Source of the DNA: Cellvibrio sp. UBA7671
GTDB lineage: Bacteria; Pseudomonadota; Gammaproteobacteria; Pseudomonadales; Cellvibrionaceae
DNA: 64,000 nt
Assembly (NCBI GenBank): GCA_002483145.1
Contig: DLHJ01000004.1
Coordinates: 62,001 to 126,000 of the forward strand
Reading direction: 5' to 3'
The position numbers and the translations under genes are program-made. Shown piece by piece: positions 11,273-47,489 of the stretch. Under the pieces are notes generated by a model, which was not told the origin of the DNA, did not search any database, and saw only the letters and a list, made by a program, of their open reading frames with translations. Every line of letters begins with the position of its first letter. Positions within the stretch are counted from its first letter, which is position 1.

Positions 11273-11298
11273 GACGGATCAAATGATAATTCCGCCCC
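11273..11298 (-). promoter_or_regulatory. Candidate ECF-sigma promoter for the receptor/halogenase operon
   Basis: On the minus strand GGGGCGGA and CCGTCTTAT are separated so that GGGGCGG-N15-CGTC holds. The same arrangement occurs at five other sites in this window, always facing a gene start. It lies directly downstream of a minus-strand terminator at 11326-11353. Confidence 0.65.
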
Positions 11299-11325
11299 TA
11301 CAGTGATTTCCAAACCAACAAAAAA

Positions 11326-11353
11326 GCCCTAATTGCAAGTGAGCAATCAGGGC
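11326..11353 (-). terminator. Minus-strand terminator just upstream of the candidate ECF promoter
   Basis: Eleven-bp stem GCCCTGATTGC / GCAATTAGGGC (one G-U pair) followed by TTTTTT on the minus strand. It would insulate the promoter from upstream transcription. Bases 11354-11600 around it hold no gene I can support. Confidence 0.7.
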
Positions 11354-11609
11354 CATACGGATAACTTAATCAACGAGGAAAAATTTAGATGACGGGAACA
11401 GGCGGCGCCTAATTATTAATCTACAATCGACGTATAAGCTCACCACCAAAAATCCCAATGCATGATCGACCCGATCTCAAACGTAAGCATCCAATAATCC
11501 GCACCTACAGCTTGTAGCCGGATCAAACATAATGGCCACGTACAGCCAAGCTATTCAGATTTATATTCAAGCTTCTTAAATTATCTCAATGAAAAATTCA
11601 ACAAGTAAT

Positions 11610-11635
11610 GGGGCGGATTTCATTTATCGTACGTC
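11610..11635 (+). promoter_or_regulatory. Candidate ECF-sigma promoter for the left copy of the paired unknown genes
   Basis: GGGGCGGA at 11610 and CGTC at 11632 keep the N15 spacing seen at 11273 and 47464. It faces the gene whose ribosome site is at 11659, about 35 bases downstream of the CGTC. Confidence 0.65.
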
Positions 11636-11668
11636 ATATACTAAATAGGTTTTTTAAAAGGATTTCCC

Positions 11669-11681
11669 ATGCAAAAAAATG
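11669..11681 (+). promoter_or_regulatory. Ambiguous start: well-placed ATG out of frame across a run of seven A
   Basis: A Shine-Dalgarno-like AAGG (around 11659) is well spaced for ATG 11669, but that ATG is in the wrong frame. ATG 11679, in frame, sits about 16 bases from it. The two are separated by C and seven A (11673-11679). Losing one A would fuse the better start to the frame as M-Q-K-M-T-L-L. Confidence 0.5.
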
Positions 11682-12344
11682 ACATTACTACTATTCACCG
11701 TATTGGCTACTTTCGGTGCTCTATATTTTATGTATGAAAAAAAAGAATCACTCAGTGCGACGATGTCATTTCCGCTACCAGAACCACAAATCAGTAAAAG
11801 TCATTTTTATGCCGCACCAAGAAAATCAGGCCAGGAAAAAGGGAACATAGTTAATTCGATTACTACCGAAAACACAATCGAAAATATAACCGAACTAAAA
11901 ATCCAAAGAGAGCCTCAGCCCCTTCACGACTCTTATCTTAAGCCAATAATATTGGCGGCCTACGCTAAAAACAAAGAAAATATTGACAATCGATTTAAAT
12001 CGATCAACGGTCGCCTGGCCCAAGACCCAACCATGTCAGTGTCAGACGTCTTGGGGAAACTCTTTGAAGAAGAACCAGTTGAAATCGAATGGGCAAGGAA
12101 GAACGAAGAGAATATTTATAACTTCTTTCGCGACAGCAATAACTTTAAAAATTTTTCTCCCGAGTCTGTGGACTGCAGGTCATCTAGTTGCAGAGTGGTG
12201 ATATCTGCAGCAGATGAGATAGCAAGCATTGAAATCCAGAACAAAATTAGTCATCAGTTGACTATTAACCACCCTGCAATCCCTCGCAGCTATAGCACTA
12301 TTACAGATCAACAAACAGCAAAACTAACCATTTATTTTCAGTAA
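11679..12344 (+). CDS. Membrane-anchored protein of unknown function, left copy (gene A)
   Basis: A 221-residue product. It has one N-terminal membrane segment (LLLFTVLATFGALYFMY), a variable linker, and a conserved C-terminal part. Strong matches to the gene at 19307-19981 include RFKSINGRL, the segment around EWARKNEENIYNFFRDSN, NFSPESVDC, SSSC and IQNKISHQL. Two conserved cysteines in VDCRSSSC may form a disulphide, which fits a periplasmic location. No known family was recognised. It is followed at 125 bases by gene B (12469). A candidate ECF promoter precedes it. The start is uncertain because of the poly-A shift at 11669-11681. Confidence 0.75.
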   Translation: MTLLLFTVLATFGALYFMYEKKESLSATMSFPLPEPQISKSHFYAAPRKSGQEKGNIVNSITTENTIENITELKIQREPQPLHDSYLKPIILAAYAKNKENIDNRFKSINGRLAQDPTMSVSDVLGKLFEEEPVEIEWARKNEENIYNFFRDSNNFKNFSPESVDCRSSSCRVVISAADEIASIEIQNKISHQLTINHPAIPRSYSTITDQQTAKLTIYFQ

Positions 12345-12390
12345 TTTCATGGATAAGGAAGATAGGAACCATGTGGCAGCCTTAGGTTTC

Positions 12391-12412
12391 ACCAACACTC
12401 TATATCGTTGGT
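12391..12412 (+). other. Conserved small hairpin between genes A and B, left copy
   Basis: Arms ACCAAC / GTTGGT with a 10-nt loop. The same arms and flanking bases recur between the homologous genes at 19244-19262, so the intergenic sequence was duplicated too and the hairpin kept despite a changed loop. Confidence 0.5.
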
Positions 12413-12468
12413 ATACATAAGGATTATGTGGCTGCTGAACACTAATCATTAATTAATAGGGAAAGAAA

Positions 12469-13137
12469 ATGAATACTTTTATTAAGATATTGCTTGGTTT
12501 GACTTTAGGGATTACAACACTTTCAACAAACGCTCAAACAACACGAGCGTTATTTTCAGGTGGTGCCATAATTGATAGAGATTCCCATATTCGTTACAGT
12601 TTTGCTGACAGCTCCTGTAGAGAGATAACGAGTAGATTGTTTTATCTCGCGGGACCGCTTACCTGGTTCGATTCAAAAGTATATTGCAGCGGCTTTAGCG
12701 AACCCATTCTTACCTTCACCTATGGTCTTTACGATTACGGCCTAGGTCCTACTTCAATACAAAGTTGCAGCATCGATCGAGGTAATAATCCAAATGTAAT
12801 TTTTTACTCTACTGAAAATTGTTTCGCATCTGTTGGCGCGATGGTAAGCGCTCCAACGCAACCTCGAGATTTAGTATTTTGGGATATAGGAAGTTACCTT
12901 TCAGAACCCTATATTTCGTTAAAAGATCCTACCTGTTCAAAAGCAAAAACTCTCATTAGCGGTAGTTATTCAACGTCCCGCTACAGAATTAATGTTTCCT
13001 GCCCTTCAGTCACCGGACCCGTAATTAGTATTGATTACTATGTGGGAAGCGGCCCGCGAACTGTAACGAAAAATCCAAGTTCAAAAGTAATAACAAATAC
13101 AGCAGCAACAGCTGACTATGTTAAGTTGGTTCCTTAA
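12469..13137 (+). CDS. Secreted protein of unknown function, left copy (gene B)
   Basis: A 222-residue exported protein. The signal peptide MNTFIKILLGLTLGITTLST ends near NAQ; the mature part contains eight or so cysteines spaced through a beta-rich sequence. It matches the equally long product of 18526-19194 throughout (ITSRLFYLAGPLTWFDSKVYC against VTSRLSYLAGPLEWFDSKVYC, and SCSIDRGNNPN against SCSITRGSNPN). AGGGAAAG lies before the ATG. No known family was recognised; an internal repeat of the pattern (C-residue block followed by a short beta segment) is suggested. It is co-transcribed with gene A, so the two products may work together in the periplasm or at the surface. Confidence 0.8.
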   Translation: MNTFIKILLGLTLGITTLSTNAQTTRALFSGGAIIDRDSHIRYSFADSSCREITSRLFYLAGPLTWFDSKVYCSGFSEPILTFTYGLYDYGLGPTSIQSCSIDRGNNPNVIFYSTENCFASVGAMVSAPTQPRDLVFWDIGSYLSEPYISLKDPTCSKAKTLISGSYSTSRYRINVSCPSVTGPVISIDYYVGSGPRTVTKNPSSKVITNTAATADYVKLVP

Positions 13138-13200
13138 CTATTATTATGACACAAAAAATCGCACTTGATTATTTTTCCGGTTACAATTAAAAACCTTGAC

Positions 13201-13235: not shown

Positions 13236-13250
13236 ATTTTGGGCTGTAAC

Positions 13251-14123: not shown

Positions 14124-14173
14124 AGATGTGTTTCAGCAGCGGTATAAACGATAAAAAGGCGGGATAAAAAAGC

Positions 14174-14197: not shown

Positions 14198-14215
14198 AAA
14201 GGGGTTGAGCAAGAG

Positions 14216-15409
14216 CTAATTTTGCTTGGTGAAAAGAATCGTATTATCTTTCAAGTTTACACGAATCAGGTAAGTGCCCGCTTTTTCCGGGGAGACTTTC
14301 CATTTCAAATCGTCCGCAGAACTATTTGCACCAACTTTTACTACAATGGGGCCAGGAGCTTCTGTTGGAAGGTCAGCTGCAGTGGATGGCGCGAATATCC
14401 ATATCCCATTTGACCACTCATAATTCTCACCATTGGCCTGACCAAATAATTTCAAAGCTTGTTCACCACCCGTAGCAGCCAAATCAGTTACAGTGGTGAA
14501 AACCATTGGATCGATAGCATCTCGCTCGAAGCGTACAGCGCCATTTAAATTCCAACCTGCAACAGTACCATCACCCACCATACCCAATTCATAGGCAGGT
14601 GCACCGAAATATACTTTTTGAGTTTTCTGATCGATAACAATAGTGTATTCACCAGCTACTGGCACTTGCCATTTGTTGTCTGGGCCGCCACTTGGAATTA
14701 CTTTCATTGCAGGATTAGTTACGGATTGTTGGTCCGCCTCCGGCATAATCCATTCGATGCAGCACCAATCACCTGGGATCGGCGCCAAAGGGAATTTAAT
14801 CGCGCCAGGCTCAAGATGACCCTGCCACGTAAACCTACCCTCAATAGTTGGGTGTTGCTCCAATGGGATAGCCGCTGTGTTGGTCCAACCCGCAGCAGTG
14901 GCGTCTCCAATCATCGCTACATATTCATAAAACTCCTTAGTATTAAGATCAAAATTAGCAATAGTTGACTGATTGGCTGAATCTACTGCCACAATACGCG
15001 CATCGTAAATTCGTCCACCTTGCAAGGCGAAAGTCGCATCACTGTTTTGATCTTGTAACTCAGTTAAATCAAGACTAACAATTGATTCAAGGCCGGATAA
15101 GTTATCCAGTTTTGCTACAACAACATCATTGATTTCAACATAATAGGATTTGAGTCCCTTATCATCGCCAATGTAAATTTCTACAGCTTTACGGATGTTG
15201 ACATCTGCTCGAGTACCATTTTCCAAAGCTGTTTTTGCTGCGCCATTTCCAATACCGAAGTAAGGAGCACGATCAACGGGATCTGTCGCTTTATAGCCTC
15301 CCGAGGAATTACCTCCTCCACAACCTGTAACGACAGATGCCAACACACCGGCAAGGAAAATAATTCCCATTTTTTTCATATCTACTTTTTTATTTAATAC
15401 TTTTTTCAT
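14216..15409 (-). CDS. SusE/SusF-like outer-membrane carbohydrate-binding lipoprotein
   Basis: A 397-residue lipoprotein. The signal peptide ends in the lipobox VVTGC, followed by GGGNSSGG. After an N-terminal domain come two related modules that begin YVAMIGDATAAGWTN and LGMVGDGTVAGWNLN and continue with G-W-W-rich beta strands, the pattern of SusE/SusF starch-binding modules of Bacteroidetes. Those proteins hold alpha-glucans at the cell surface beside the SusC/D transporter. Here the neighbour is a TonB-dependent receptor (15462-18269), but no SusD is visible. The same fold seems to recur in the dextranases of this window (LWVAGTFSNWSLK type). Alpha-glucan binding at the surface is therefore likely. 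Confidence 0.8.
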   Translation of the reverse strand: MKKVLNKKVDMKKMGIIFLAGVLASVVTGCGGGNSSGGYKATDPVDRAPYFGIGNGAAKTALENGTRADVNIRKAVEIYIGDDKGLKSYYVEINDVVVAKLDNLSGLESIVSLDLTELQDQNSDATFALQGGRIYDARIVAVDSANQSTIANFDLNTKEFYEYVAMIGDATAAGWTNTAAIPLEQHPTIEGRFTWQGHLEPGAIKFPLAPIPGDWCCIEWIMPEADQQSVTNPAMKVIPSGGPDNKWQVPVAGEYTIVIDQKTQKVYFGAPAYELGMVGDGTVAGWNLNGAVRFERDAIDPMVFTTVTDLAATGGEQALKLFGQANGENYEWSNGIWIFAPSTAADLPTEAPGPIVVKVGANSSADDLKWKVSPEKAGTYLIRVNLKDNTILFTKQN

Positions 15410-15461: not shown

Positions 15462-18269
15462 TTAAAATTTAAAACGAGCACCTATTTCAAAGCGGCGATA
15501 GTATTGCTCGTAATAATGTGTTGCTGTCTTGTCTCCCCAAAAGGTCTGGCCATTTTCTTCCAGCAGATTTTGAGCTTCTGCATAAATGGAGAGGTTTTCA
15601 TTCACGTTGTAGGCCAAGCTTAAGTCCAGCCCCTGGTAATCAACATTTAACTTTGGATTGCCCCAATTGCCTTCACGGGCTCCAGCTATGTAGTCATCGC
15701 GATAGCTATAACTTAAACGTGCGCTGTAAAGCTCTGTTTCGTAAAAACCAACCAGGTTGTAGGTATTTTCTGAAACACCATCAAGTTCGCCCTCAGTTTC
15801 TACACCATTGACAGTCGTTGAGGAGGAAGTATCGGCGAAAGTGTAATTGGCTTGTAAACCAAAACCATTGTCAAAAATTTTCTGGGCAGAGAGTTCAACA
15901 CCATTGAGTTCCGCAGTATCGCCGTTTAATGGAGTGCCCGCATTCCAGGTTCCGGTAACGTTAGATTGGGGCTGCCCACCAATTTGTTTAAATTCAGGGA
16001 TAACATAAGTAATTTCCCTACTACCACCAAAGATCCAGTCAGAGATATCTTTATGGTATACCGCAACTGAAGCAGTCAATCCGTCATCGCCATACCATTC
16101 GTATGACACATCAAAGTTATTTGATTTGATAGGCTTTAAGTAGGGGTTACCATTAGTCCGAAGTTTCGGAAACCCTGCACCAACTTCCCAAGTAGTACCA
16201 GTACCCAAATCTGTCATTGATGGACGAGTGATGGTTTTGGATGCGGAAAACCGCAGTTTTGAATTGTCCCAAACGTTTATGATCAAATTAGCCGATGGCA
16301 AAATCTCATCGTATGATGAGTCGTAAGAAACAGGGACTGCTTCGGTAGTTGTGAGGCTGTAATTAGTTGATGATTCCATGCCAGTTGTCTTGTCGACAAC
16401 AGGAACTAAAATGGTAGGGCTAACCTCGTAGCCGCTGGTAGTTAAATCCGTATTAATCCAGCGAATCCCCACATTTGCATTCCAGATTTCTTCTTTAATA
16501 TTTAACTGAACATAGGCAGCAGTGTTTTCCTCTTCAATTAATGTAGAACGTTCAAGTTTATGCTCCGGGGCCATTTCGTCATCGAAACGACCAAGACGAT
16601 TTTCAATAACATCGTAACGACGCGCAGCAGCGAATAATGCGTAAGGATTCATCGCTGGGAAATACGGCAGACCGCTATCAACACCTGAATCAAACTCTGC
16701 ATAACCGTCAACGGCATCAATACCAACTGCTCCTATTTTGCGGTGATAGAAACAATAGGTACAACCATCTTTCGGAGTCTTGAAAATATCTTTATCTTTT
16801 TCACGCTGGCTATAGGCAACACCAAATTCCAAAACCGACTCGGTATCAAAAAAGGCAAAATCATAATCACCGTCGAAATGGAATGATGTGGCCTTGTCGT
16901 TGACCTGCTCTCCCTTCAAATCCATGTAATGCAATCCGAGATCGGCATTGGTTACATCCCAGCAGTTTCTTCCATCATTAATAGTGCAGCCAATTTTGGG
17001 CGCGGCATTATTACTAGCATCCCAAGTGTAGTGGGCCGTTTTAAGTCCGGCTACCGTATAAAGATCATCACCTTCATTAGGACGATCCGCTTCGGAATAT
17101 GCGATGTCAGCCGATAATTTTAGGGCATCCGTTACTTGAAACTCATTATTCCAACCCACCATATAGGTATCAGTCTCACGCTCACGCGTATCTGTACCCA
17201 TTTCCAATTCTGTAGTGGTTGAAAATTTAGTCGCCACATGGGTTATACCGCGTGTTGCACTTGACCAAGGCGTTAATTCTTCAAAAACTGTGCTGCCTGC
17301 AACTGATGAACCGAAATTTATATTGTATGAGTAAGCCCCTTCAGGAGTTTTGTAATTTGAATAGAAGAAGTCCAGTGTGGAATTCCATTGGTCATTCGGA
17401 CGGAATTGAAATGCACCGGCAACACCTAAACGTTCCCTTTCGCCAAACTTCAACTGGTAAGAAGCGATTTCCGGCATCCACGCGGTAATTTCATGATCTG
17501 CAACATCAGCACCAACGGGATTGTTATTAACATCGACTGGAACTGTGACAGTTTTATTTGCACTCAATAATTCATACGTATTCGCATGCCATTCACGTTT
17601 TGAATAGGTGACGCCGAGAGAGGCGCCGATCGTATCATCCATAAAACTATTAGAAACAACCAGGGTTGCTTGCTCACCCCATTTTTCTGTACCTTCGTCA
17701 TAGAGCCCGCCAAGAGAACCGGCTACATGTAAGCCAGGAGTATCCAGCGGCCGACGAGTTTTTACGCTGATGAGGCCACCAATACTGCCTTCCTCGAGCG
17801 ATGCGCTTGACGTTTTATAAACATCAGCCTGCGATATAAGTTCGGATGGCATTACGTCAAAACTAAAGTCACGCCCCGCATTATCGGTTGCTAATGTACG
17901 ACCGTTCATTGTGGTCAGATTAAATTGACTACCCAAACCACGAACAGATACAAAACGGCCTTCACCTCCACGATCACGAGAAATTTGAACGCCGGGGACC
18001 CTCTGCAATGAGTCAGCTATATTCGCGTCCGGAAACTTACCTATATCTTCCGCAGTAATGGAATCAACAATCACATCGGAATTACGTTTAAAATCTGCAG
18101 CTGATTTCAAGCTGTTCGCAATACCATAAACAACCACCTCTTCGGTGATATCAGTGTCTGAGCTCTGGGCGTAAACCATGTTGGTACCCAACGCCATAAG
18201 GATCGCCGAGCTCAGAATTTTTAATTGGAATTTTCGAGAAGCTTTTGCAGCATTGTTATAAGTATTCAC
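15462..18269 (-). CDS. TonB-dependent receptor, partner of the SusE/F-like lipoprotein
   Basis: A 935-residue receptor. Signal peptide ending near MVYAQS, TonB-box-like EEVVVYG, plug with AEDIGKFPDANIADSLQRVP and FVSVRGLGSQFN, and a barrel closing with EIGARFKF. It starts with GTG at 18269, preceded by GAGG six bases away; the nearby ATG is out of frame. It heads an operon with the SusE/F-like lipoprotein and a periplasmic binding protein. It probably takes up alpha-gluco-oligosaccharides; that is inferred from the partner lipoprotein. A candidate ECF promoter lies 120 bases upstream. Confidence 0.92.
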   Translation of the reverse strand: MNTYNNAAKASRKFQLKILSSAILMALGTNMVYAQSSDTDITEEVVVYGIANSLKSAADFKRNSDVIVDSITAEDIGKFPDANIADSLQRVPGVQISRDRGGEGRFVSVRGLGSQFNLTTMNGRTLATDNAGRDFSFDVMPSELISQADVYKTSSASLEEGSIGGLISVKTRRPLDTPGLHVAGSLGGLYDEGTEKWGEQATLVVSNSFMDDTIGASLGVTYSKREWHANTYELLSANKTVTVPVDVNNNPVGADVADHEITAWMPEIASYQLKFGERERLGVAGAFQFRPNDQWNSTLDFFYSNYKTPEGAYSYNINFGSSVAGSTVFEELTPWSSATRGITHVATKFSTTTELEMGTDTRERETDTYMVGWNNEFQVTDALKLSADIAYSEADRPNEGDDLYTVAGLKTAHYTWDASNNAAPKIGCTINDGRNCWDVTNADLGLHYMDLKGEQVNDKATSFHFDGDYDFAFFDTESVLEFGVAYSQREKDKDIFKTPKDGCTYCFYHRKIGAVGIDAVDGYAEFDSGVDSGLPYFPAMNPYALFAAARRYDVIENRLGRFDDEMAPEHKLERSTLIEEENTAAYVQLNIKEEIWNANVGIRWINTDLTTSGYEVSPTILVPVVDKTTGMESSTNYSLTTTEAVPVSYDSSYDEILPSANLIINVWDNSKLRFSASKTITRPSMTDLGTGTTWEVGAGFPKLRTNGNPYLKPIKSNNFDVSYEWYGDDGLTASVAVYHKDISDWIFGGSREITYVIPEFKQIGGQPQSNVTGTWNAGTPLNGDTAELNGVELSAQKIFDNGFGLQANYTFADTSSSTTVNGVETEGELDGVSENTYNLVGFYETELYSARLSYSYRDDYIAGAREGNWGNPKLNVDYQGLDLSLAYNVNENLSIYAEAQNLLEENGQTFWGDKTATHYYEQYYRRFEIGARFKF

Positions 18270-18388
18270 ATGTAACCTCGTTATTTGTTACCCATTTGAT
18301 TTTAGGCTCGTAGTGGAACCACTTGTTTTATTGGAAGCGGAACACCTCCGGACTGGCGCATAAATCTAGAATTTGCAGCCCGATATGT

Positions 18389-18415
18389 GACGGGGATAAC
18401 GGTAGAATCCACCCC
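18389..18415 (-). promoter_or_regulatory. Candidate ECF-sigma promoter for the receptor/SusE-F operon
   Basis: Minus strand GGGGTGGA with CCCGTCACA, spacing N16 between GGGGTGG and CGTC, one base longer than most of the set. It follows the strong terminator at 18457-18493. Confidence 0.55.
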
Positions 18416-18456
18416 CCCCGATTCGGAGGGACAAGAGAAAAGTGGAAAAAACGATT

Positions 18457-18525: not shown

Positions 18526-19194
18526 CTAATTAATTTGAAATTTGACAAACCCTGAGTTTGAAGTCTCAGTTACAATAGCTTTTGCATGCTTTGACCTGAC
18601 AAACCATCTCCCACCATCATAGGATGCAAATGAAACCACGGCACCCTCTATACCATTGCAGTAAACTGATGAATAACTACCGCCCGTGTACCCCTGGCCC
18701 TGAGGGTCAGTGGCAAATGTCGCATGACAACTGGTATCAGACCAGGAATAAGTGGGCATAGGCTGCGACATTGGAACCCAGGCAAATAGATCTCGAGTAA
18801 TGGGCACAGGGGGAGTAATTTCTGTTACACCAACATATGCAGAACAATTCGCCGCATGATAAAAAAGTAGATTGGGGTTACTACCTCGAGTAATGCTGCA
18901 GCTTTTTATCGGAGATGGGCTTGGGTAGCCATATTGGCTGTAAGTAAACGTCAAAACAGGCCCCGTAATACCAGCGCAATAAACCTTTGAGTCAAACCAT
19001 TCAAGAGGACCCGCCAGGTAAGACAATCTGCTGGTTACGCTTCGGCACGAAGGATCATTAAAGCTATAACCAATATTGTAACCCGTACCAACAGTAGCGC
19101 CGCCGGTAAATAAAGTTCTTGTCGTTTGAGCACTCGAGGACAATGTAGCAATCCCTAAAACCAAACCAAATGACATCTTAATAAACTGATTCAT
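18526..19194 (-). CDS. Secreted protein of unknown function, right copy (gene B')
   Basis: A 222-residue exported protein, paralogue of the product of 12469-13137 along its whole length, with signal peptide MNQFIKMSFGLVLGIATLSS and conserved cysteines. The second half differs more (WVPMSQPMPTYSW region) than the first. AGGAAG lies before the ATG. It follows gene A' (19307) in the same order and with the same intergenic hairpin as the left pair, but the whole unit is inverted. Function unknown. Confidence 0.8.
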   Translation of the reverse strand: MNQFIKMSFGLVLGIATLSSSAQTTRTLFTGGATVGTGYNIGYSFNDPSCRSVTSRLSYLAGPLEWFDSKVYCAGITGPVLTFTYSQYGYPSPSPIKSCSITRGSNPNLLFYHAANCSAYVGVTEITPPVPITRDLFAWVPMSQPMPTYSWSDTSCHATFATDPQGQGYTGGSYSSVYCNGIEGAVVSFASYDGGRWFVRSKHAKAIVTETSNSGFVKFQIN

Positions 19195-19306: not shown

Positions 19307-19981
19307 CTATATTTCATTTCTATGAAAATAGATGATTAACCTCGCGGATTCCGGATCAACAGTAGCACTATAATTATTAAGAATAATGGTGGGATTTTTT
19401 GATAACTGATGGCTAATTTTATTCTGGATATCGATACCAATGCCTTCATCAGGTGCAGCGATAATCACTTGGCAACTAGATGATTTACAATCCACCGATT
19501 CTGGAGAAAAATTTAAAAAATCATTTCCATTGCGAAAAAAATTGTAAATTCTTTCTTCATTTTCTCTAGCCCATGATAGGTCAGTGGGTTCCTCATCAAA
19601 AATCGCTCCCATAACGTCTATCACTGATTTATTTGGTTCTTTTGTAAGGCGATCGTTTATCGCGTTAAATCGATTTTCCATGCTTTCTTTCTGCTTAACT
19701 TGAATAGCTGACAATAAGGGAGAAAGTAAATTATCTGCAATCGCTTCATCTTTTGTATACGATATATCCTTTTCTAACTCCATATTGGCTTCTGATGAAA
19801 TGGAATTGACATAACTAATTTTAGGAGACTCCACTTTTATCGGGGTATCATCCAATTTATATTTATTCACACTAATCTCTGCTAAATTTTCTATTTTTTG
19901 TGGATATTCACGTTTTTGAAAAATTGAGTAAAGAATGATTAGAGAGGGTAATAGCACGAAAATCCATATTTTCTTTTCCAT
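19307..19981 (-). CDS. Membrane-anchored protein of unknown function, right copy (gene A')
   Basis: A 224-residue product if started at ATG 19981 (MEKKIWIFVLLPSLIILYSI), which puts the membrane segment at the N-terminus as in the left copy; the upstream frame to 20107 overlaps the candidate promoter and is not needed. The C-terminal part is conserved with 11679-12344 (RFNAINDRL, SWARENEERIYNFFRNGN, NFSPESVDCKSSSC, IQNKISHQL). The intact MEKK start here supports the idea that the left copy originally began in front of its poly-A run. No family recognised. Confidence 0.78.
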   Translation of the reverse strand: MEKKIWIFVLLPSLIILYSIFQKREYPQKIENLAEISVNKYKLDDTPIKVESPKISYVNSISSEANMELEKDISYTKDEAIADNLLSPLLSAIQVKQKESMENRFNAINDRLTKEPNKSVIDVMGAIFDEEPTDLSWARENEERIYNFFRNGNDFLNFSPESVDCKSSSCQVIIAAPDEGIGIDIQNKISHQLSKNPTIILNNYSATVDPESARLIIYFHRNEI

Positions 19982-20014
19982 GATTATGCCTTTAGAACTT
20001 ATACATACCTGTAT

Positions 20015-20040
20015 GACGTATGTTTTGAAAAAACCGCCCC
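20015..20040 (-). promoter_or_regulatory. Candidate ECF-sigma promoter for the right gene A'/B' pair
   Basis: Minus strand GGGGCGG followed 15 bases later by CGTC, about 34 bases before the ATG at 19981. Its position mirrors the site at 11610 in front of the left copy. Confidence 0.65.
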
Positions 20041-20128
20041 TTAAACCGCTAAAAATAATTGTAGGCAAAAAAATTGACAGTTCAGTATGGATTATAAAAA
20101 GGACCATAGCTAAGCCGGTGATGAAGGA

Positions 20129-30768: not shown

Positions 30769-30912
30769 GATTCGATTCACCCGCAAAGCTCCAAACCGCA
30801 ATATTCAGGCTTCGCGCTTGGCACATATCGTTAGAACCGGAAATTCAATTTCCGAATATATTTATTACGAATTATCATAAAATGAAGCCAATGAAGATTG
30901 GTGCGACAATGA

Positions 30913-30940
30913 GACGTCTTTGGTAGCAAGATCCGCCCCC
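30913..30940 (-). promoter_or_regulatory. Candidate ECF-sigma promoter for the giant protein
   Basis: Minus strand GGGGCGGA and ACGTCTCA with N16 between GGGGCGG and CGTC. It lies in the 278-base divergent region shared with the methyltransferase gene; no matching site faces the methyltransferase. Confidence 0.6.
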
Positions 30941-31046
30941 TCAGCTCATACAAAAGTTTAGTTGATCTGGAGGAAAACCCATTGGTGTCCACACCTCTCT
31001 ATCAGATAGAATTCGAGTATGAATTATTATTTTTAGTGAATATTTT

Positions 31047-36337: not shown

Positions 36338-36385
36338 AATCACCTTTGGAAAATTTTCAGGACTGAATATAAATCCTGGATTGGG

Positions 36386-39300: not shown

Positions 39301-39760
39301 AATAAAAATCTAAAAGCTCTTCATCAGAAGAAGCTACTTTATCGCCCGGCAGCGACACATGGATATCTTTCATATCTGCAAAATACTGCAATAGGGCAGT
39401 CGCTACCGAATTAACAAACATTAAGCTAGTTTTATCTACACTAATTTCAGATTTGTTTTCCGTCAATCCGAACTGATGTTGCCATCCTTTACCTGTAATT
39501 TTAAATCGTCTTGGATTGTCAGCAGATGTTGGTCCCGCCTTCAAATTATTTGCAACATATAATCCTAAATTTTTGTCAAACCTAAATTCGGTTTTTTCGT
39601 CCTGAACCCAGCTGGTAAAAGTGCCCGACAAATAGATGTCGTACGGAAGCTGCTTTCCTTTCCCTAATATTGAATCCGCGTTGGCCCCACCGACAATACA
39701 ACATGCCAATATAGTCAATATAACTCTCATACCGATGGAACCCTTATTTGAAAAACTCAT
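36386..39760 (-). CDS. Exported six-hairpin ((alpha/alpha)6-barrel) glycoside hydrolase
   Basis: About 1124 residues from ATG 39760, which follows AGAGGTGATT in the same way as the next gene. A signal peptide ends at GGANADS. An N-terminal module (DIYLSGTFTSWVQDE to FKITGKGWQHQFG) resembles the binding modules of the neighbouring dextranases. The catalytic barrel begins near residue 360. It shows KWNYVWTRDLSYA (about 410), a tryptophan-arginine-aspartate motif also found in GH15 glucoamylases, and GEQSYLDWRTQTY. C-terminal beta domains follow. The exact family was not recognised; by context it should release glucose from alpha-1,6-linked oligosaccharides in the periplasm. A GH15- or GH63-like activity is the main alternative. 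Confidence 0.72.
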   Translation of the reverse strand: MSFSNKGSIGMRVILTILACCIVGGANADSILGKGKQLPYDIYLSGTFTSWVQDEKTEFRFDKNLGLYVANNLKAGPTSADNPRRFKITGKGWQHQFGLTENKSEISVDKTSLMFVNSVATALLQYFADMKDIHVSLPGDKVASSDEELLDFYLQIQAAGPTPKATLKVVRDIPPLANFYLKRSSGETVSLSYQGDGVYSGGVVLPKGTSNFVLNNSAGKYFDSLPLSSGEQASLNVCKERCELSFEVSEQYVYQLAIKIPNYAPGISTSHNAPIISLNKLDSLAAKSAAPHFDATGSVTKVSFDPYPLDKTGKVETVEVSTKGSVLGEREFTFTSTQQQRDDKPKWRTITEKKDAPQVVTASPFFDGLFALTIDDMRLNSVSHIRDANYNQGQAIPCNCFETGEKWNYVWTRDLSYAVNLSLANLEPQRSMDSMLFKTSKFREGVTSPTSLPKDTMQIIQDTGSGGSWPVSTDRVSWSVAAESVLNNLSGSDRQGFAKTAYASLVGTIEADRQAIYDYREGLYGGEQSYLDWRTQTYAPWITKNLVRMSESKALSTNVLHYQAISLTAKLAKEFGDVSAAKKYSAWADSLRDKINSKFWLNDKGLYSSLTSAAEDQAPVYKFDMLGNSLAINYGIASADQATKIMANYPHAPFGVPVYFPQQPNVYVYHNRSLWPFVTAYSLRAAKKTKNYQAANNAINSLMRGTALHLSNMENLEWLTGKSWYDDGPAINSRRQLWSTAGYLGMVTETLFGYEVSDQGIEISPFLTSELRSKLGASASAQLNNINYHGKKISINLLLPPISSIPGYFEPRSIVLNGKNVKGTISESMLTEATNVVEVTFGKLISNKQTITMVPSIDPMSHIAASVFSPVTPEIERLDIEGGKLRLVFMLEREGQSNDPITYNVYRNGEKVATGVSENTWIDSKKLKSNVRTCYALEAVFVSSANRSHHSEPMCYEENATMFISVADERVDSNVKVTPASINLNKAALIDWGKPTDRLIVNNLIINETGSYSIQAIYNNRQHTIDSGVTAAVKGIRIFNTDGDLVNQGIIQMPNIADNDDVFPFLPSSEMVVKLKKGVYQIKFDDFFNMSYLETNATYGGSGGKSGPVNTATIAGFKVTRLEN

Positions 39761-39808
39761 AATCACCTCTTTTCATGTAACTCTATAAAATACTGCAAGT
39801 ATTCAGGC

Positions 39809-41548
39809 TTACAATTCATAAATTGTTGCTTCGTAAGGTCGAAGCAAAGCGCTGGAGGACTTTTCTTTATAATTACTAGACACAACCTTGGAGTTCACAA
39901 AAGAAATATTTGTGTTCAACTTGGCAGGATCTTTAGTGAAGTTCAGAGCAATCAAAAAGGTTTTTTTATCAAGTTTTCGAGTGTAAGCATATACGGATGG
40001 GTTACTTTCATCGATGACGGTATAATCCCCGTAGATAAGGACTGGATTTGATTTCCTAAGATGAACTAAATCACGAAAATAATTAAGTGGTGAGTTCTGA
40101 TTTTTATCCTGAATTTCAACATTTACGCTTTTGTAATTTTGATTAACCCTAAGCCAAGGCTTACCAGTTGTAAATCCCGCATTCGGAGATGAATCCCATT
40201 GGAATGGCGTACGCGAATTGTCTCTTGCGCTAATTTTTTGTGCTTCTATGAACTCCTTTAGATTTCCATTATTCTTTTGTAATTGTTGATACATATTTAT
40301 GGATTCAATGTCTCTATAGTCAGCAATCGAATTAAATTTAATATTATTCATTGCCAACTCATCGCCATAATAATAATAAGGGGTAGCTCGCATCGTCATC
40401 AAAAATGTGGTCAACATTTTAGACGAAAGCTCCCTGAATTCTGGCGAATCGTTGCCCCATCGAGTAACCATGCGCGGCTGGTCATGATTACCCAAATAGA
40501 TTGTTCCCCATCCTTTCTGTGCAAAAACGGCGTCCCATGTGGAATAGATTTTCTTGAACTCACGAAGATCGTAGCCTTTCGGATCCATGACCTTAAATTT
40601 GTTGGGTAAATATCCCAAATGAACCCCATCAAAGTGGTACAACATATCCAATTCCTTGCGCGCTGGATCAACAAATTTAAGTCCATCCTGAGGTTTAACC
40701 GCAATCCCTTCTGCAACGGTCATAATATTGTAGTGTTGCAGTACCTCACGATGCATCTCTTGTAAGTAATCATGTAATTTCGGTCCAGTTGCGTAGTGTG
40801 ACAACATATCGTCAGCTGGAAACTCCGGAAATGCCTGATCTTTTGCAATAAATGGAATTACATCCATACGGAAGCCGTCGACCCCCTTCTCGAACCAAAA
40901 ACGCATCATCTTATAAATTTCAGCTCGCAGTTTCGGATTTTCCCAATTCAAATCAGGTTGTTTGTCAGAAAAATAATGTAGATAGTATGCATTTGTTTTT
41001 TTATCGAATTCCCATGCATTACTTTCCACGTCGAAAAAACTGTATCGCGCTGGCGGAGTACCCTTTTCAGCATTCCACCAATGATAGTAATTACGGTAAG
41101 GATTCTCGCGAGAACTGCGCGATTGTTTAAACCATTCATGCTCTGAACTACTATGGTTTACAACCAAATCCAACACCAATTTTAAACCTCTCTTATGCAT
41201 CTCCATTAACAGCTGATCGAAATCAGCCATAGTCCCAAATTCCTTCATGATGCCTTCGTAGTTACTAATGTCATATCCATTGTCATCGTTTGGCGACTCA
41301 AAAATTGGATTCAACCATATAATGTCAACTCCAAGGCTTTTTACATAATCAAGCTTTTCGATTATTCCTCTAATATCACCTATACCATTGCCATCTGAAT
41401 CCTTGAAGCTACGCGGATATATTTGATATACCACACCTTCCTTCCACCATTTTTTGTTCACATTTGAAGTTGTGTTAACCTCCTCCGCACAAATAGGCTG
41501 AATAGAAAGACCCGCAAACAAAAGTAGAAGTAATATTTTTTTAATCAT
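39809..41548 (-). CDS. Periplasmic GH13 alpha-glucosidase, oligo-1,6-glucosidase/dextran-glucosidase-like
   Basis: About 579 residues from ATG 41548; the longer TTG frame to 41593 is less likely because MIKKILLLLLFAGLSIQPIC is a signal peptide. The GH13 regions are clear: YQIYPRSFKDSDGNGIGDI, DLVVNHSS, GVDGFRMDVIPF (nucleophile Asp229), MTVAEGIAV (acid/base Glu280) and LGNHDQPRM (Asp356). The start of the barrel and GVDIIWLNPIFESP fit the oligo-1,6-glucosidase subfamily. Export of this usually cytosolic enzyme, and its place between a dextranase and a six-hairpin hydrolase, suggest hydrolysis of isomalto-oligosaccharides in the periplasm. Confidence 0.88.
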   Translation of the reverse strand: MIKKILLLLLFAGLSIQPICAEEVNTTSNVNKKWWKEGVVYQIYPRSFKDSDGNGIGDIRGIIEKLDYVKSLGVDIIWLNPIFESPNDDNGYDISNYEGIMKEFGTMADFDQLLMEMHKRGLKLVLDLVVNHSSSEHEWFKQSRSSRENPYRNYYHWWNAEKGTPPARYSFFDVESNAWEFDKKTNAYYLHYFSDKQPDLNWENPKLRAEIYKMMRFWFEKGVDGFRMDVIPFIAKDQAFPEFPADDMLSHYATGPKLHDYLQEMHREVLQHYNIMTVAEGIAVKPQDGLKFVDPARKELDMLYHFDGVHLGYLPNKFKVMDPKGYDLREFKKIYSTWDAVFAQKGWGTIYLGNHDQPRMVTRWGNDSPEFRELSSKMLTTFLMTMRATPYYYYGDELAMNNIKFNSIADYRDIESINMYQQLQKNNGNLKEFIEAQKISARDNSRTPFQWDSSPNAGFTTGKPWLRVNQNYKSVNVEIQDKNQNSPLNYFRDLVHLRKSNPVLIYGDYTVIDESNPSVYAYTRKLDKKTFLIALNFTKDPAKLNTNISFVNSKVVSSNYKEKSSSALLRPYEATIYEL

Positions 41549-41611
41549 ATTTTTTCCAATTATAAAAAACAGGTTGCCGACAACAGTCGGCAACCTCAGG
41601 AGGGATGAAAA

Positions 41612-44600
41612 CTATTGAATTGAATAAGCTAATGTCACAGGGTCAATGGTAATTGTGTATGTTTTAGACTGCGCAACAGTAAATGCCAGGTTCGGTTTGC
41701 CGCCAGTCGATTCCGTAACTGTTCCTGCCAGGCCTGTAGTATTGCCCCAGTCTTTTCCAGTCCAGTTTCCTGTATTAGCGAACTTTAATTGGTGATTACC
41801 AGCAGATAACGCTTGCGAAAAGGAAAACTTGCCGCTGGAATATGTCATCGACTTCAATGACCAACCATTAAATGTTCCTGCAACCCACATTGGTAAAGGT
41901 TGTACTGCGAGCGCTACTATCGAGTAACTCAAGGTTGTTGGATTGAACGAAATTTTATAGTCGCCTGCCTGAGCTAAACTGAAAGAGATATTTGGGGCAC
42001 CACCAGTGGATTCTTTAGCAAAACCCTCCAAGCCATTGGAATTTCCCCAATCTTTTCCTTTCCAATCCGCAGTGTTGGCGAATTTAAGTTGATGATTTCC
42101 CGCACCCAGACTTATTTGATATTCAAAATTTCCGGAGTTGTTATTAACAGCCATAGCTTTGAGCGACCAGGAATTGAAGCTACCAGCAACCCAAAGACTG
42201 GTTGGGTTAACGGGTGGATCTACTGCTATAACAGCAATTTTGTAAGCAAATGTTGAAGGACTTAACGTAATTTTATAATTGCCAGGCTGGGTTATGGTGA
42301 AAGTAACATTCGGCAAACCACCGGTGGATTCCGTAGCATTCCCTTCCAAACCCGTAGAGTTGCCCCAATCCTTCCCTTTCCAATCACCTGTGTTCGCAAA
42401 TTTCAACGCATGGTTTCCAGCGCTAAAGGCCTGGGTAAATTCAAATACTCCCGCATTCAAATTCATCGCTTTTAGTGACCAATTGGAAAAGGTACCTGCC
42501 ACCCAAAGTGAAGTTATCGGCGGCAAGGCATCGTCAATAACGGTGAAACTGCGTGTCGCACTTGCAGAGCAATAGGCACTGTCACCAGCCTGAAGAGCTC
42601 TAACCATAACCTCGCCAATTTGATTTCCAACGGTAACCATATCCCCACTGACAATAGCATCACCACTTAGAATGCTAAAAGCGATGGGGAGTCCTGAAGT
42701 AGCCGTTGCATTGACACGAACAGTAGATCCTGTCGGTTGATCTGCGATGCCTGCGAAATTTACAACCTGACTTATACAGCCCGCGCTGGAACTGGAACTA
42801 GAACCTGGCATCGAACTTGTTGAAGCCGAACTTGTACTCTGGGTATCAGATTTCCATGCATTCCAATTATCAAAAACATCAGCATCGAATCCTAAACGAC
42901 CTATCTGATTAGCAGCCCAATTATTAGCCGCGCGCGTAACATAAACACCACCAACAGTGTAATTTTCAAGCTTAAGCCCTTTACCCTGGGTTGATTCATT
43001 TCCAATAGAAACCTTCTGTCCACCGCCATTTGAATAACGTTTGAAATCACTGATAACTCCGGGTGAATCCATATCCGTCCAAGCATCAATTTTCAAATTT
43101 TTAATGTGGATATTCTCCATACTTGAAAGAGAATAAATACGAATGGCGCAATTAACTTCACCTTCAACATAAGTATTTTCAATCATTATGTTTTTTACCC
43201 AAGTATTGGGATCAGCTCTAGTTGTCGAATTTGGATCCTCCCAATGAGAAGACGCATTGATTACGCAGGTATTAGTTTTCTTATCTTTCCACCACATGCG
43301 GCTATGAATAACGTAAGTATCTTTTACTTTTACATTTTCAAGATTTCTAGGGATCCAACCCCATTGGATGACAGGACCATTTTCGTTTTTCCAAATCACA
43401 GTATTGGTGGCCGAGGTATTATTATGGTACATCTTTAACACGTCATCGTTCGCGTGGAAGAACGAGTTGCTCAAAGTACTATTCTTATATAACTCAATAC
43501 CATCAGTCTGCCAAAACCAGCTGCCGACTTGTTTGTAATTTTCAACACGCATTTGGAAGGTGTCTTCGCTGCCGTAAACAACAAAAGAATGGTAAGGAGG
43601 CTCGACTATTGTTACACCTTGCAAATCGAGATATTGCTGCGGATTGTCTGATTCAAATTGCAGCATCTTCACACAATTAGTGTGGCATTTCTCCGTAGTG
43701 GAATGCGTGTATCCATTCAGGGTATCTGCTTCATAAACATATTTTTCACCAGATAGAGCGCCATAACCTGTAACTTTATAGACTGACTGATTTTTATGAG
43801 GGAAACGAAACGCACCCTTAATATATGCGCCAGGCGCCAAATAAACCCACTTGACATTAGAGGGCAACATTGCGTGATAGTTATATGGCATGTAGTAAGT
43901 GCCAGGCCTAAAGTAAACGATACTTTCACTGATGTTATTTAGATTACTAACCTCGCCTTCTGCTGGATAATAAATTGACCCATCAGAACTTTTTGGAATC
44001 AGTCTGTTTGCTTCCTCACCCGTTAAAATTGGCTCGGCAAAAATCAATAAGGCATTCCGAGGCTCGGTGGTCACTTTGCTGCCGGAATTAGTATTTAATC
44101 TTCCACTGGTACCTGACATGTCGTTATAGGCGGTATACAGTTGGTTATTGAACTCCACTGAAAACCTATATCCGTTTGGTGAATATGGAACTTTAATTCT
44201 TACTGTTTTTGAATCAACCAATTCTTTTACAAAATTTAATGATGAAGGTCTAATAGTTACATCATTAACTGACGAAATAGTTTTTCCATCCGTTTCTGAA
44301 ACATACACCCATGCCTCCTCACTGTAGAGAAAGCTTGACCAACTCATTGTAAGCTTCGCTTCAGCCGCAAATTCGGCACCATCTTCGTCAGAATATCCCC
44401 ACTTAGCTTTTCCACTACGGGGGATAGACATATAAGTAAAGGAATCGTATTTGGTAGCATCGGTGGTGGTACTGACTTTAACATCGTAGTGGGTCGAGCG
44501 ACGCACTTTATTATCGGCAACAAGACTGGATTCATTGAGTTCATAATTACTATGCCACCAGGTTTGCAGTTTTCCACTGCTAGCCGATTGTTGCGAATAA

Positions 44601-44704
44601 GCGGACATGCAAGTCAGCATTCCATATAGAATCACAACCAATTTTGCATTAGTGATTATCGTTGGCCATTTGAATAATTTGACGAACTGGTAGATGGTTA
44701 ACAT
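41612..44704 (-). CDS. GH49 dextranase with Ig-like domain and three tandem binding modules
   Basis: A 1030-residue exported enzyme. The N-terminal domain begins LQTWWHSNYELNES with DNKVRRSTHYDVKVS, the pattern of Arthrobacter dextranase and Aspergillus isopullulanase. The beta-helix carries the three family aspartates in WFWQTDGIELY (Asp401) and FFHANDDVLKMYH (Asp420, Asp421). It ends near residue 640 and is followed by a short serine linker, an Ig-like domain and three ~95-residue repeats starting LWVAGTFSNWSLKAM, LWVAGSFNSWSLKAM and MWVAGTFNGWSLKSM, probably glucan-binding. AGGAG lies eight bases before ATG. It heads the five-gene dextran operon; the 212-base upstream gap has no ECF-type motif but a short palindrome CGATATTATTTATCG at 44750. 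Confidence 0.92.
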   Translation of the reverse strand: MLTIYQFVKLFKWPTIITNAKLVVILYGMLTCMSAYSQQSASSGKLQTWWHSNYELNESSLVADNKVRRSTHYDVKVSTTTDATKYDSFTYMSIPRSGKAKWGYSDEDGAEFAAEAKLTMSWSSFLYSEEAWVYVSETDGKTISSVNDVTIRPSSLNFVKELVDSKTVRIKVPYSPNGYRFSVEFNNQLYTAYNDMSGTSGRLNTNSGSKVTTEPRNALLIFAEPILTGEEANRLIPKSSDGSIYYPAEGEVSNLNNISESIVYFRPGTYYMPYNYHAMLPSNVKWVYLAPGAYIKGAFRFPHKNQSVYKVTGYGALSGEKYVYEADTLNGYTHSTTEKCHTNCVKMLQFESDNPQQYLDLQGVTIVEPPYHSFVVYGSEDTFQMRVENYKQVGSWFWQTDGIELYKNSTLSNSFFHANDDVLKMYHNNTSATNTVIWKNENGPVIQWGWIPRNLENVKVKDTYVIHSRMWWKDKKTNTCVINASSHWEDPNSTTRADPNTWVKNIMIENTYVEGEVNCAIRIYSLSSMENIHIKNLKIDAWTDMDSPGVISDFKRYSNGGGQKVSIGNESTQGKGLKLENYTVGGVYVTRAANNWAANQIGRLGFDADVFDNWNAWKSDTQSTSSASTSSMPGSSSSSSAGCISQVVNFAGIADQPTGSTVRVNATATSGLPIAFSILSGDAIVSGDMVTVGNQIGEVMVRALQAGDSAYCSASATRSFTVIDDALPPITSLWVAGTFSNWSLKAMNLNAGVFEFTQAFSAGNHALKFANTGDWKGKDWGNSTGLEGNATESTGGLPNVTFTITQPGNYKITLSPSTFAYKIAVIAVDPPVNPTSLWVAGSFNSWSLKAMAVNNNSGNFEYQISLGAGNHQLKFANTADWKGKDWGNSNGLEGFAKESTGGAPNISFSLAQAGDYKISFNPTTLSYSIVALAVQPLPMWVAGTFNGWSLKSMTYSSGKFSFSQALSAGNHQLKFANTGNWTGKDWGNTTGLAGTVTESTGGKPNLAFTVAQSKTYTITIDPVTLAYSIQ

Positions 44705-44916
44705 TTGAAAACTCCTGATTATTAGGATTATTGGATAGAAGGTGCCAAGCGATATTATTTATCGAATTCTATTCCGGCTTAGTTCAATAACATTAATTAC
44801 TTGTCACCTATAATTTATACTTATTTTTCGCAGTGCTCACTCAAGTAATAAATCCGTTATTATATTTTTGTTTCCTTAATTTACTTATATAAATTAATTA
44901 TTCACACTTAGAATCA

Positions 44917-47388
44917 CTAAATTTTTTCAACTGAGTAATTCAATGTGTAAGGGTTAAATTTAATTAAATAATTTCCAGAAATATCTATAGAAAATTTAAT
45001 GTTACCCCCCCCACCGGTCGTTTTTAGAGCCAAACCTGAGAGTCCTGTTGCCGCACCCCAGTCGTCCCCCGCCCAATTATTGGTGTCAGTAAACTTTATC
45101 TCATGGTTTCCTGCCTGAATCGATGTTGTAATTTGATAATTTTTCTCTATCGAACTCCATATCATTTCCAAATCACCTGGACTCCAACTTTTCCAGCTTG
45201 CACCGATCCAACGCCCCAAAGAAGGAGCGACATCCGGATCATATATGTGGATAGGATAAGATTGACTCACAGCGCAATAAACATCATTACCAGTTTGATC
45301 GATGCGGATTACTGCTACACCCGGCTCTTCTTTAGCGGTCAACGTGGCTCCACTTATCTCAGCAGCATCACCAACGCTAAGCACTAATGGCAAACCTGAG
45401 GACGCACTTGCCGTTATAACCAAGCTTTCACGTACTTTGATTTTCTCACTGACCGAAACAGTCAATTCCTGAGGAATACAACTAGGGGTTGTGCTTGCAG
45501 TAGCACTCCAAGTAGCATCTAGAGCCGTATCAAAACTAATCCGCCCCAATTGATCTTTATCCCAGAGAGGCCCAGGTTTAACTATTGGTTGCCCACCAAC
45601 GGTATAGTTTTCTAAAACGATACCGTTTTCAGAACTGATGTTAACTTGCGCACCACTTTCATTTCGCATTGCTTTCATTAGATTGTATTGAGATGAATTC
45701 GGAAGCTCACTCCATTTTTCTACGAATAAGTTTTTTATACGAATATTTTCCATATTCGAAAGCGCATATATTCGCATTGCACAAAGGTTCATTCCTTCAG
45801 ACCGAATATTCTCAAGCGTTATATTTTTTATCCATGTATTAGTATCTGCCTTGCTCTCCCAGTTGGCCGCTCCCGCCTCCCAACTGTTTGCAAAATTAAT
45901 AAGGCAAGTATTGTGCTTCTGATCCTTCCAATACATACGGTTATGGATAACATCAATATTTTTCGCGCTTATGTTTTGCATATTGCGCGGCGACCAGCCA
46001 AACTGAATTACTGGTCCGTTCTCGTTTTTCCAAACAACTACGCCATCAACTGTTAAATTACTGTGATAAAGTTTTAATACATCGTCATTGGCATGAAAAA
46101 AAGCATTCCTCAGGCTACTTCCCGAATAAAGTTCGATGCCGTCTGTTTGCCAATACCAACTGCCCACCTGCTGGTACTCACTGACCTCCATTGAGAATGC
46201 ATCCTCATTACCATAGAGCGTAAAACTGTGATAAGGAGGCTCGTTGATAGTAATCCCCTGCAGACGCAGATTTTGTTGTGCGTTAGATGATTGGAATTGC
46301 AACATCTTCACACAATCGCCATGACAATCACTTTTGCTCGCCAGACGATGCTTGTATCCATTTGTTTTATCAGGTTCATACACATACTGCTCGCCAGACA
46401 AAACACCATAACCGGTAACTTTATAGTTGGTTTTTGCATCACGAAATTGGAAAGCTCCTTTTACGTACGCACCCGGCGCTAAATAAACCCAATAGACATT
46501 GCCTGGCAAATACGCGTGATAATTGCCGTCCATGTGGTAAATTCCCGGTTTAAAATAAACAATTCCTTTATTAACATTTGATAGATTCACTTTACCTTCG
46601 GGAGGATAGAAAATGTCGTCTCCCGCAGGAACCAATTCCGAGCGTGTGCTTTCCGTATAATTAGGTTGCGCAAATATCATAAGTGAATTTTTGGGTTCAC
46701 GATGAATTGCATAGCCGTTATTATTCAGACTTAGCCGACCGGTATTCCCACTATTATCGTTGTAACTAACAAACTGTTGTGAATCAAACTCCACTGAGAA
46801 TCGATGCCCATTTTTTGAATATGGAACTTTTATTCGAATTGTATTTGAATCTACAAATTGCTTTTCGAAACTTAGAATTGTTGGACGAATCACTACTTCA
46901 TCAACAGTTGAAATTGATGTACCGTCTAGTAAATCGACCTCAATCCAAACATCGGAGTCAAACAAAAATGATGTCCAACTCATAGACAGTTTCGCCGTCT
47001 CAGCAAATTCAGCGCCATCTTCGTGGCTGTAACCTACTTTGAGCTTTCCACTGCGAGGGATACTCATATATACGAAGGAATTCTTAAGTACCTCGGCTTG
47101 CCCTACAGTAGATACGCGAATACCATAAATTGTTGAGCGGCGAACCTTGTCGGCAGCAACTTCGCCTAAAGAATTTTGGTCTGCACTGTCATGCCACCAA
47201 GTATGCAAGCCTGGAGGGATAGAATTCGCTTGAGAACTTGATGCAGCCTCGGTGCTTGATTGTGGATTTTGAGAGCTAAGATTTTGTGCAGAGCTTTTAG
47301 TCGATGACCCCGAGCTGCCACCACCGCAGGCGGCTAGAGTCGTCGCAAGAACAGCCACAACAAATATTCGACTTATACCAATACACAT
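44917..47388 (-). CDS. GH49 dextranase lipoprotein with one binding module
   Basis: About 823 residues from ATG 47388. The signal peptide ends with lipobox LAAC, then GGGSSGSS and a serine-rich spacer, so the enzyme is probably tethered to the outer membrane. The GH49 domain starts LHTWWHDSADQNS, with WYWQTDGIELY and FFHANDDVLKLYH providing the three catalytic aspartates (about 416, 435, 436). Then come an Ig-like domain and a single C-terminal module (LGRWIGASWKSWSPGDLEM) matching the three repeats of the 41612 dextranase. A candidate ECF promoter lies 76 bases upstream, unlike the second dextranase. Likely division of work: this one cuts polymer at the surface. Confidence 0.92.
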   Translation of the reverse strand: MCIGISRIFVVAVLATTLAACGGGSSGSSTKSSAQNLSSQNPQSSTEAASSSQANSIPPGLHTWWHDSADQNSLGEVAADKVRRSTIYGIRVSTVGQAEVLKNSFVYMSIPRSGKLKVGYSHEDGAEFAETAKLSMSWTSFLFDSDVWIEVDLLDGTSISTVDEVVIRPTILSFEKQFVDSNTIRIKVPYSKNGHRFSVEFDSQQFVSYNDNSGNTGRLSLNNNGYAIHREPKNSLMIFAQPNYTESTRSELVPAGDDIFYPPEGKVNLSNVNKGIVYFKPGIYHMDGNYHAYLPGNVYWVYLAPGAYVKGAFQFRDAKTNYKVTGYGVLSGEQYVYEPDKTNGYKHRLASKSDCHGDCVKMLQFQSSNAQQNLRLQGITINEPPYHSFTLYGNEDAFSMEVSEYQQVGSWYWQTDGIELYSGSSLRNAFFHANDDVLKLYHSNLTVDGVVVWKNENGPVIQFGWSPRNMQNISAKNIDVIHNRMYWKDQKHNTCLINFANSWEAGAANWESKADTNTWIKNITLENIRSEGMNLCAMRIYALSNMENIRIKNLFVEKWSELPNSSQYNLMKAMRNESGAQVNISSENGIVLENYTVGGQPIVKPGPLWDKDQLGRISFDTALDATWSATASTTPSCIPQELTVSVSEKIKVRESLVITASASSGLPLVLSVGDAAEISGATLTAKEEPGVAVIRIDQTGNDVYCAVSQSYPIHIYDPDVAPSLGRWIGASWKSWSPGDLEMIWSSIEKNYQITTSIQAGNHEIKFTDTNNWAGDDWGAATGLSGLALKTTGGGGNIKFSIDISGNYLIKFNPYTLNYSVEKI

Positions 47389-47463
47389 AATTTTTTCGCC
47401 CAATTATGATTTTTAGTTATTAACAAAATGCATGCAAATGAATAATCATTTGGCATCAAATAA

Positions 47464-47489
47464 GACGTATCAAGTCGAATTTCCGCCCC
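47464..47489 (-). promoter_or_regulatory. Candidate ECF-sigma promoter for the dextranase lipoprotein
   Basis: Minus strand GGGGCGGAAAT with ACGTCTTAT, N15 between GGGGCGG and CGTC. The surroundings, including a terminator about 30 bases upstream, are almost the same as at 11273-11353, extending to GGCGGAA and GTCTTAT. Confidence 0.68.

Follow-up and report, generated by a model that had tools for sequence, protein, structure and literature searches.

A probable FecI-linked promoter element and a predicted alpha-glucan regulon in a Cellvibrio genome

What is the function of a short motif that recurs, each time facing a gene start, ahead of otherwise unlike genes in one part of a Cellvibrio genome? 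The motif, GGGGYGG-N15/16-CGTC, is found in a 64,000-nt stretch of Cellvibrio sp. UBA7671 (contig DLHJ01000004.1, positions 62,001 to 126,000; this whole stretch is the window, and positions below are counted within it). A first-pass annotation of the window took it for a promoter of the extracytoplasmic function (ECF) sigma type and proposed a six-site regulon for glucan use, possibly driven by a FecI/FecR pair. CGTC is a usual -10 element of ECF sigma promoters. The comparisons described here make it very probable that the motif belongs to a promoter recognised by a FecI-like ECF sigma factor whose gene lies at 51063-51611 (-). This factor would control a self-amplifying local regulon with about ten promoters, serving an alpha-glucan for which dextran is the likeliest candidate.

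There are seven exact copies of the motif in the window, against a mean of 0.03 and a maximum of one in 100 shuffled versions of it. All six of the annotated sites are present where they had been placed and each faces a gene start, the only correction being that the site beginning at 30913 ends at 30939 and not at 30940. The seventh copy, at 56120-56145 (+), sits within the open reading frame (ORF) 55765-57057, which overturns the annotation's remark that no exact copy occurs inside a gene. Frequent random matches across the genome, which had been named as one outcome that would count against the proposal, were not found, the 5.04 Mb genome containing 14 exact matches compared with four for a reversed-pattern control. 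The division between intergenic and coding copies also came out in its favour: the six sites are intergenic, and of the eight other copies seven (56120 included) lie in stop-to-stop frames of at least 220 codons. The eighth (L014) is tRNA-Met-like, the corresponding sequence being identified as tRNA-Met by ARAGORN in all three of the sister-genome loci tried, with no tRNA call on the copy in this genome, which is broken up by Ns. The six sites, confined to the one cluster, are the sole exact copies in the genome outside long frames and tRNA-like sequence. Wider forms of the motif, with up to two mismatches, gave only background in the genome outside the cluster (one match against 16 with the reversed control, and five against six). 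The near-matches C14:307407, a terminator-like hairpin, and C5:90186, inside a reading frame, were dropped; the other near-matches of the five-match search are on C3, C8, C11 and C12 (L158-L161). It had also been said that three of the sites follow a terminator; hairpins are listed ahead of those at 11273 and 47464, and one ahead of 18389 is visible in the sequence but is not listed by the terminator scan.

The extent of the element was established from relatives of the sigma factor, which were collected from named genomes (the best 80 of 224) and from the genomes of further relatives. Footprinting of the 600 nt 5' of fecI in 34 loci, together with those of G000, G004 and G061, gave the shared element GGRGYGGATT, 13 nt, CGTCTTA. 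Thirteen clear sites, the window's own included, were picked for showing the element and aligned; the remaining loci of the 34 inspected had weaker forms of it, or none, 5' of fecI. The full element is GGRGYGGAWT-N12/13-CGTCYTA, with GGRGYGGAWT as the predicted -35 region and CGTCYTA as the predicted -10 region. The annotation's -35 block GGGGCGG is one variant of this longer sequence. The two blocks vary in their spacing by one base only and every site is oriented to the unit downstream, and in these respects, as in its CGTC-type -10, the element has the form of an ECF promoter. A matrix built from the 12 fecI-upstream sites outside the window (ten of the 34 inspected loci, plus G004 and G061) was used to scan the window and the loci of FecI relatives. 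Its ten strongest matches in the window score between 15.2 and 32.5, and the next 11.0; they comprise every one of the six annotated sites together with four that are new, so that the count of six was too low. In 20 Markov copies of the window there was a mean of 0.15 matches of at least 12, with a best single score of 16.9. The ten sites are spread over 41 kb, and the highest score in the window belongs to a new site at 51783-51814 (-), directly ahead of fecI itself, which supports a predicted autoregulation of the regulon.

The suggestion that FecI and FecR are the drivers is supported by this copy in front of fecI, by the recovery of all six reported sites with a matrix made from 12 other fecI loci, and by the arrangement in G004 and G061. 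In these two genomes the genes of the FecI and FecR orthologues (73% and 47-49% identity, respectively) immediately precede GH49, TonB-receptor and SusE/F genes. The element is found in G004 ahead of fecI, of GH49 and of a gene resembling that of receptor 2 of the window. In G061 one copy lies ahead of fecI and two ahead of GH49, with one each at the start of a receptor frame and ahead of a SusE/F gene. By eye, the -35 block 5' of fecI in G004 (L053:18214-18245) lies in a perfect-looking inverted repeat, GGGGGAGCGG...CCGCTCCCCC. Across 35 scanned regions there were 45 matrix matches of at least 14, the 12 training sites among them, and nine of the 45 were inside a mechanically called frame. 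In the 29 loci (530 kb) whose FecI protein was 40% identical or more there were 27 matches of at least 18 (ten of them training sites; two in Markov sequence) and 36 of at least 14 (Markov eight), whereas around more distant FecI proteins (51 loci, 928 kb) there were none of at least 18 (Markov none) and five of at least 14 (Markov six). An untrained set was drawn from 35 further stretches, of which 17 were set aside against earlier FecI loci and 18 were used; a match of at least 14 was present in 17 of the 18, and in 11 it was no more than 190 nt from a gene recognised as fecI or as that of a receptor, with matches before unrecognised frames or further away in another five. Beyond the window, fecI, receptor or dextranase genes are preceded by the element in loci of other Cellvibrionaceae, of SAR92 and of Microbulbifer. 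The Cellvibrio genome itself has two FecR genes, and no match of at least 12 was found at the locus of the other one. The exact pattern was near the control level in 21 genomes, this one included, and in 390 genomes it gave three matches against one for the reversed control, two of them before FecI genes (this genome and G388, a training locus) and one within a frame. A match in G006 (L039) was discarded by eye as lying inside a histidine-kinase-like frame. The GH49 loci of G009 and G017 had no FecI match within the stretches fetched, and that of G009 (L063) had a single matrix match of 15.7.

An element of this kind might instead be the binding site of an activator or repressor. The -35-like block is unusually long, with ten conserved bases, and GC-rich, as operators can be, but an operator would not readily account for two unlike blocks held at a distance fixed to within one base, for a CGTC second block, for the single orientation toward genes or for conservation with the FecI clade, including the position before fecI, and this explanation is regarded as improbable. 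Much the same small weight is given to the possibility that these are ECF promoters read by another ECF sigma factor of the genome, with the FecI pair a mere neighbour; the survey of the genome's own ECF sigma factors covered the FecR-linked ones, but the element tracks this particular FecI clade across genera and, at 18 bits, is found around none of the more distant FecI proteins. The A/B gene pairs described below are duplicated, with a site in each copy, which might suggest that the motif is a by-product of duplicated upstream regions within the cluster. The flanks of the sites look unrelated, however, the likeness between unrelated units is limited to the two blocks, the genes downstream differ in family and the element is also present in other genera, so that such an origin is barely credible.

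Recognition by FecI is the reading that best agrees with these data, and a number of observations weigh against it. The training sites of the matrix were chosen because the element was visible in them (ten of 34 loci, with G004 and G061). The weakest match in the window, at 15.2, is below the best match in a Markov copy, at 16.9, and for this reason the site concerned, before GH49, rests also on its exact motif and on its counterpart in G004. Among the untrained loci, G069 had no match at all and G026 a single one far from fecI, and of eight untrained fecI upstream regions five scored at least 24, one 12.1 and two nothing. One of the new sites implies a leader of 443 nt. Against the NCBIfam models for true FecI and FecR the two proteins score far under the cut-off (71.5 of 260 bits and 96.3 of 385 bits), and the signalling domain of the putative sensor is below that of Pfam (21.0 bits against 28.4). 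Finally, isopullulanase is the second PDB match of the GH49 protein, which leaves pullulan as a possible substrate.

The sigma factor gene encodes a protein with matches over cut-off to Pfam Sigma70_r4_2 and NCBIfam sigma70-ECF, and the adjacent gene at 49949-51070 (-) a regulator with Pfam FecR and DUF4880 domains, also over cut-off, which is the gene arrangement of cell-surface signalling. Judged by the models above, the pair is FecI-like and not FecI of the E. coli type. Transcription is assumed to start 7 nt past CGTC, which gives computed leaders of 27 to 443 nt. The site at 51783-51814 (-; score 32.5) is the predicted promoter of fecI-fecR. Three further sites are new: 51916-51947 (+; 19.3), predicted to serve the gene at 52394-55648 (+) by way of the 443-nt leader; 49883-49914 (-; 18.9), predicted to serve 49097-49723, encoding a membrane-like protein, and the gene at 47828-48973 (-); and 47722-47753 (-; 19.0), which precedes a structured, terminator-ended stretch. 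The remaining six carry the exact motif and are the predicted promoters of the GH49 operon (47461-47491, -; 15.2, the lowest of the ten; reported at 47464-47489), of a giant DUF4347 gene (30910-30941, -; 24.4), of the A2-B2 pair (20012-20042, -; 19.8), of receptor 2, a SusE/F-like gene and the gene at 13251 (18386-18417, -; 18.9), of the A1-B1 pair (11608-11638, +; 22.2) and of receptor 1 with two halogenase-like genes (11270-11300, -; 19.0).

That this regulon would serve glucan use is a reading of its gene content. The GH49 operon encodes a dextranase-like GH49 protein (44917-47403, -) and a second GH49 protein (41612-44704, -), both recognised by Pfam, a GH13-type enzyme of the alpha-amylase family (39809-41593, -; Pfam Alpha-amylase), a six-hairpin glycosidase-like protein (36386-39766, -; weak Pfam matches over cut-off) and a TonB receptor (33371-36343, -). 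Two other TonB receptors, likewise recognised by Pfam, are encoded at 15462-18269 (-; receptor 2), next to a SusE/F-like gene (14216-15409, -; Pfam SusF_SusE), and at 8217-11015 (-; receptor 1), next to the two genes with Pfam matches to tryptophan halogenases (5127-6653 and 6650-8146, -). With two GH49 proteins and three receptors the locus has the dextranase-family enzyme and TonB receptor expected of a dextran utilization locus. Pfam returned no SusD-like match for the window proteins scanned. Dextran is likely to be the inducer, as the nearest solved relative of the first GH49 protein is a dextranase (6nzs, E 4e-211) and isopullulanase comes second (9e-95). The FecI regulon could also be correctly described and respond to something else, such as pullulan or another alpha-glucan, for isopullulanases also belong to GH49 and the locus has GH13-type, SusE/F-like and AMPK-type glycogen-binding domains; given how far the dextranase match exceeds the other, a different inducer is considered unlikely without being negligible.

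If dextran or a related glucan is the signal, the glucan or its fragments would bind the TonB receptor 33371-36343, the periplasmic signalling domain of which would contact FecR, and FecR would then activate or release FecI. The FecI-RNA polymerase would transcribe fecI-fecR, the GH49 operon and the two further receptor operons, along with both A/B pairs, the giant protein gene and a redox set resembling Cbp2D and Cbp2E. This receptor is the likely sensor, being the only one of the three in the window with an STN-type match, albeit a weak one, and its gene is part of an operon preceded by a predicted promoter; its counterparts score 33.4 bits in G004, over the Pfam cut-off, and 27.3 in G061, just under it.

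Neither FecI/FecR signalling nor sigma control of polysaccharide loci is new as a kind of system. In the available part of PMC9249621, FecI/FecR systems are described as controlled through a TonB receptor that carries a periplasmic signalling domain, and the window resembles E. coli FecI/FecR/FecA in having an ECF sigma factor, a FecR-type membrane regulator and a candidate for such a receptor, with the sigma gene directly 5' of the regulator gene. The E. coli system as described there concerns iron, has the single target promoter fecA and has fecIR under Fur control without autoregulation, whereas in the window there are glycan genes and about ten predicted promoters, including that of fecI. 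Bacteroidota loci, as presented in the available text of PMC10316084, likewise have an ECF sigma/anti-sigma pair beside polysaccharide-use genes and TonB transporters, but such control is there called Bacteroidota-specific, and the present host is a gammaproteobacterium with no SusD-like protein detected by Pfam in those scanned. The dextran utilization locus of Flavobacterium johnsoniae, from the same text, is similar in its surface glucan capture, dextranase and TonB transport, but employs GH66, GH31, GH97 and GH65 enzymes where the window has GH49. TonB receptors also occur in proteobacterial carbohydrate (CUT) loci, those of Xanthomonas and of aquatic bacteria (PMC1790865, available part); the FecI/FecR case described there has a Fur box ahead of it and is considered to belong to iron uptake. 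In the titles and abstracts searched, which did not take in the promoter motifs predicted in the ECF reclassification, nothing described the promoter element, the way it is conserved with the FecI clade or a dextran regulon of ten promoters. Should the reading hold, there would be a readable promoter code for a sigma clade encoded next to carbohydrate receptors in a number of gammaproteobacterial groups, the targets of these sigma factors would be predictable from sequence, and sigma/anti-sigma control of polysaccharide use, described for Bacteroidota, would extend to a gammaproteobacterial dextran system.

Between the predicted promoter 47722-47753 and that of the GH49 operon is a stretch, 47508-47715 (-), that ends in a terminator (47548-47518) and folds with a z-score of -4.8, none of 200 shuffles being as stable. 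Rfam gave no match to it, and homologous DNA was absent from the other 20 genomes in the genus set; G061 has a like arrangement before GH49, with a shorter stretch of dissimilar sequence. The window's stretch could represent a small RNA or a leader, or it could simply belong to the upstream operon as its 3' end. A more ambitious proposal, put forward tentatively and rather doubtful as a whole, is that a glycan-sensing FecI clade of Cellvibrionaceae, SAR92, Microbulbifer and their neighbours uses a promoter code peculiar to it, GGRGYGGAWT-N12/13-CGTCYTA, frequently regulates itself and was co-opted for multi-operon polysaccharide regulons, and that its dextran version also drives a small structured RNA between two sigma promoters before the dextranase gene, by which the operon is tuned.

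The regulon gives a testable context to several genes of obscure role, namely the A/B pairs, the giant DUF4347 protein and the Cbp2D/Cbp2E-like redox proteins. A1 (11679-12344, +) and B1 (12469-13137, +) have no Pfam match, and A2 (19307-19981, -) and B2 (18526-19194, -) none in Pfam or NCBIfam; the two A proteins are 44% identical and the two B proteins 48%. In an alignment of 20 sequences the gene A family, which has no name, has an N-terminal helix and a C-terminal domain with two invariant cysteines, and matches to it occur in 24 of 144 family genomes. The predicted C-terminal fold is confident (mean predicted local distance difference test, pLDDT, 77.9) and matched no PDB entry at E 0.001 or better. 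Gene B has by eye a signal-peptide-like start and appears cysteine-containing and beta-rich, in a poor model (pLDDT 47.8). The giant protein (21139-30801, -) has DUF4347, He_PIG and cadherin-like matches in Pfam. The product of 47828-48973 (CBM2 and YceI) is Cbp2E-like and that of 52394-55648 (CBM2, YceI, cytochrome c and PSD) Cbp2D-like, by Pfam domains only; Cbp2D and Cbp2E, whose domain content these CBM2-YceI proteins resemble, are known from cellulose use in Cellvibrio japonicus (PMC12542752, available part), and here their likenesses adjoin a dextran-type regulon of which they are predicted members.

In several relatives FecI/FecR is followed by receptor and halogenase genes (L065, with SapC and DUF6445 genes in addition, G020, G128 and G024), which suggests that the receptor-halogenase unit may be the older target and that the dextran genes were recruited later. 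The same FecI clade lies beside GH3 and sugar-transporter genes in L072 and beside a GH3 gene in L082, accompanied by the element; these loci and the receptor-halogenase-SapC-DUF6445 locus are possibly regulons for other glycans.

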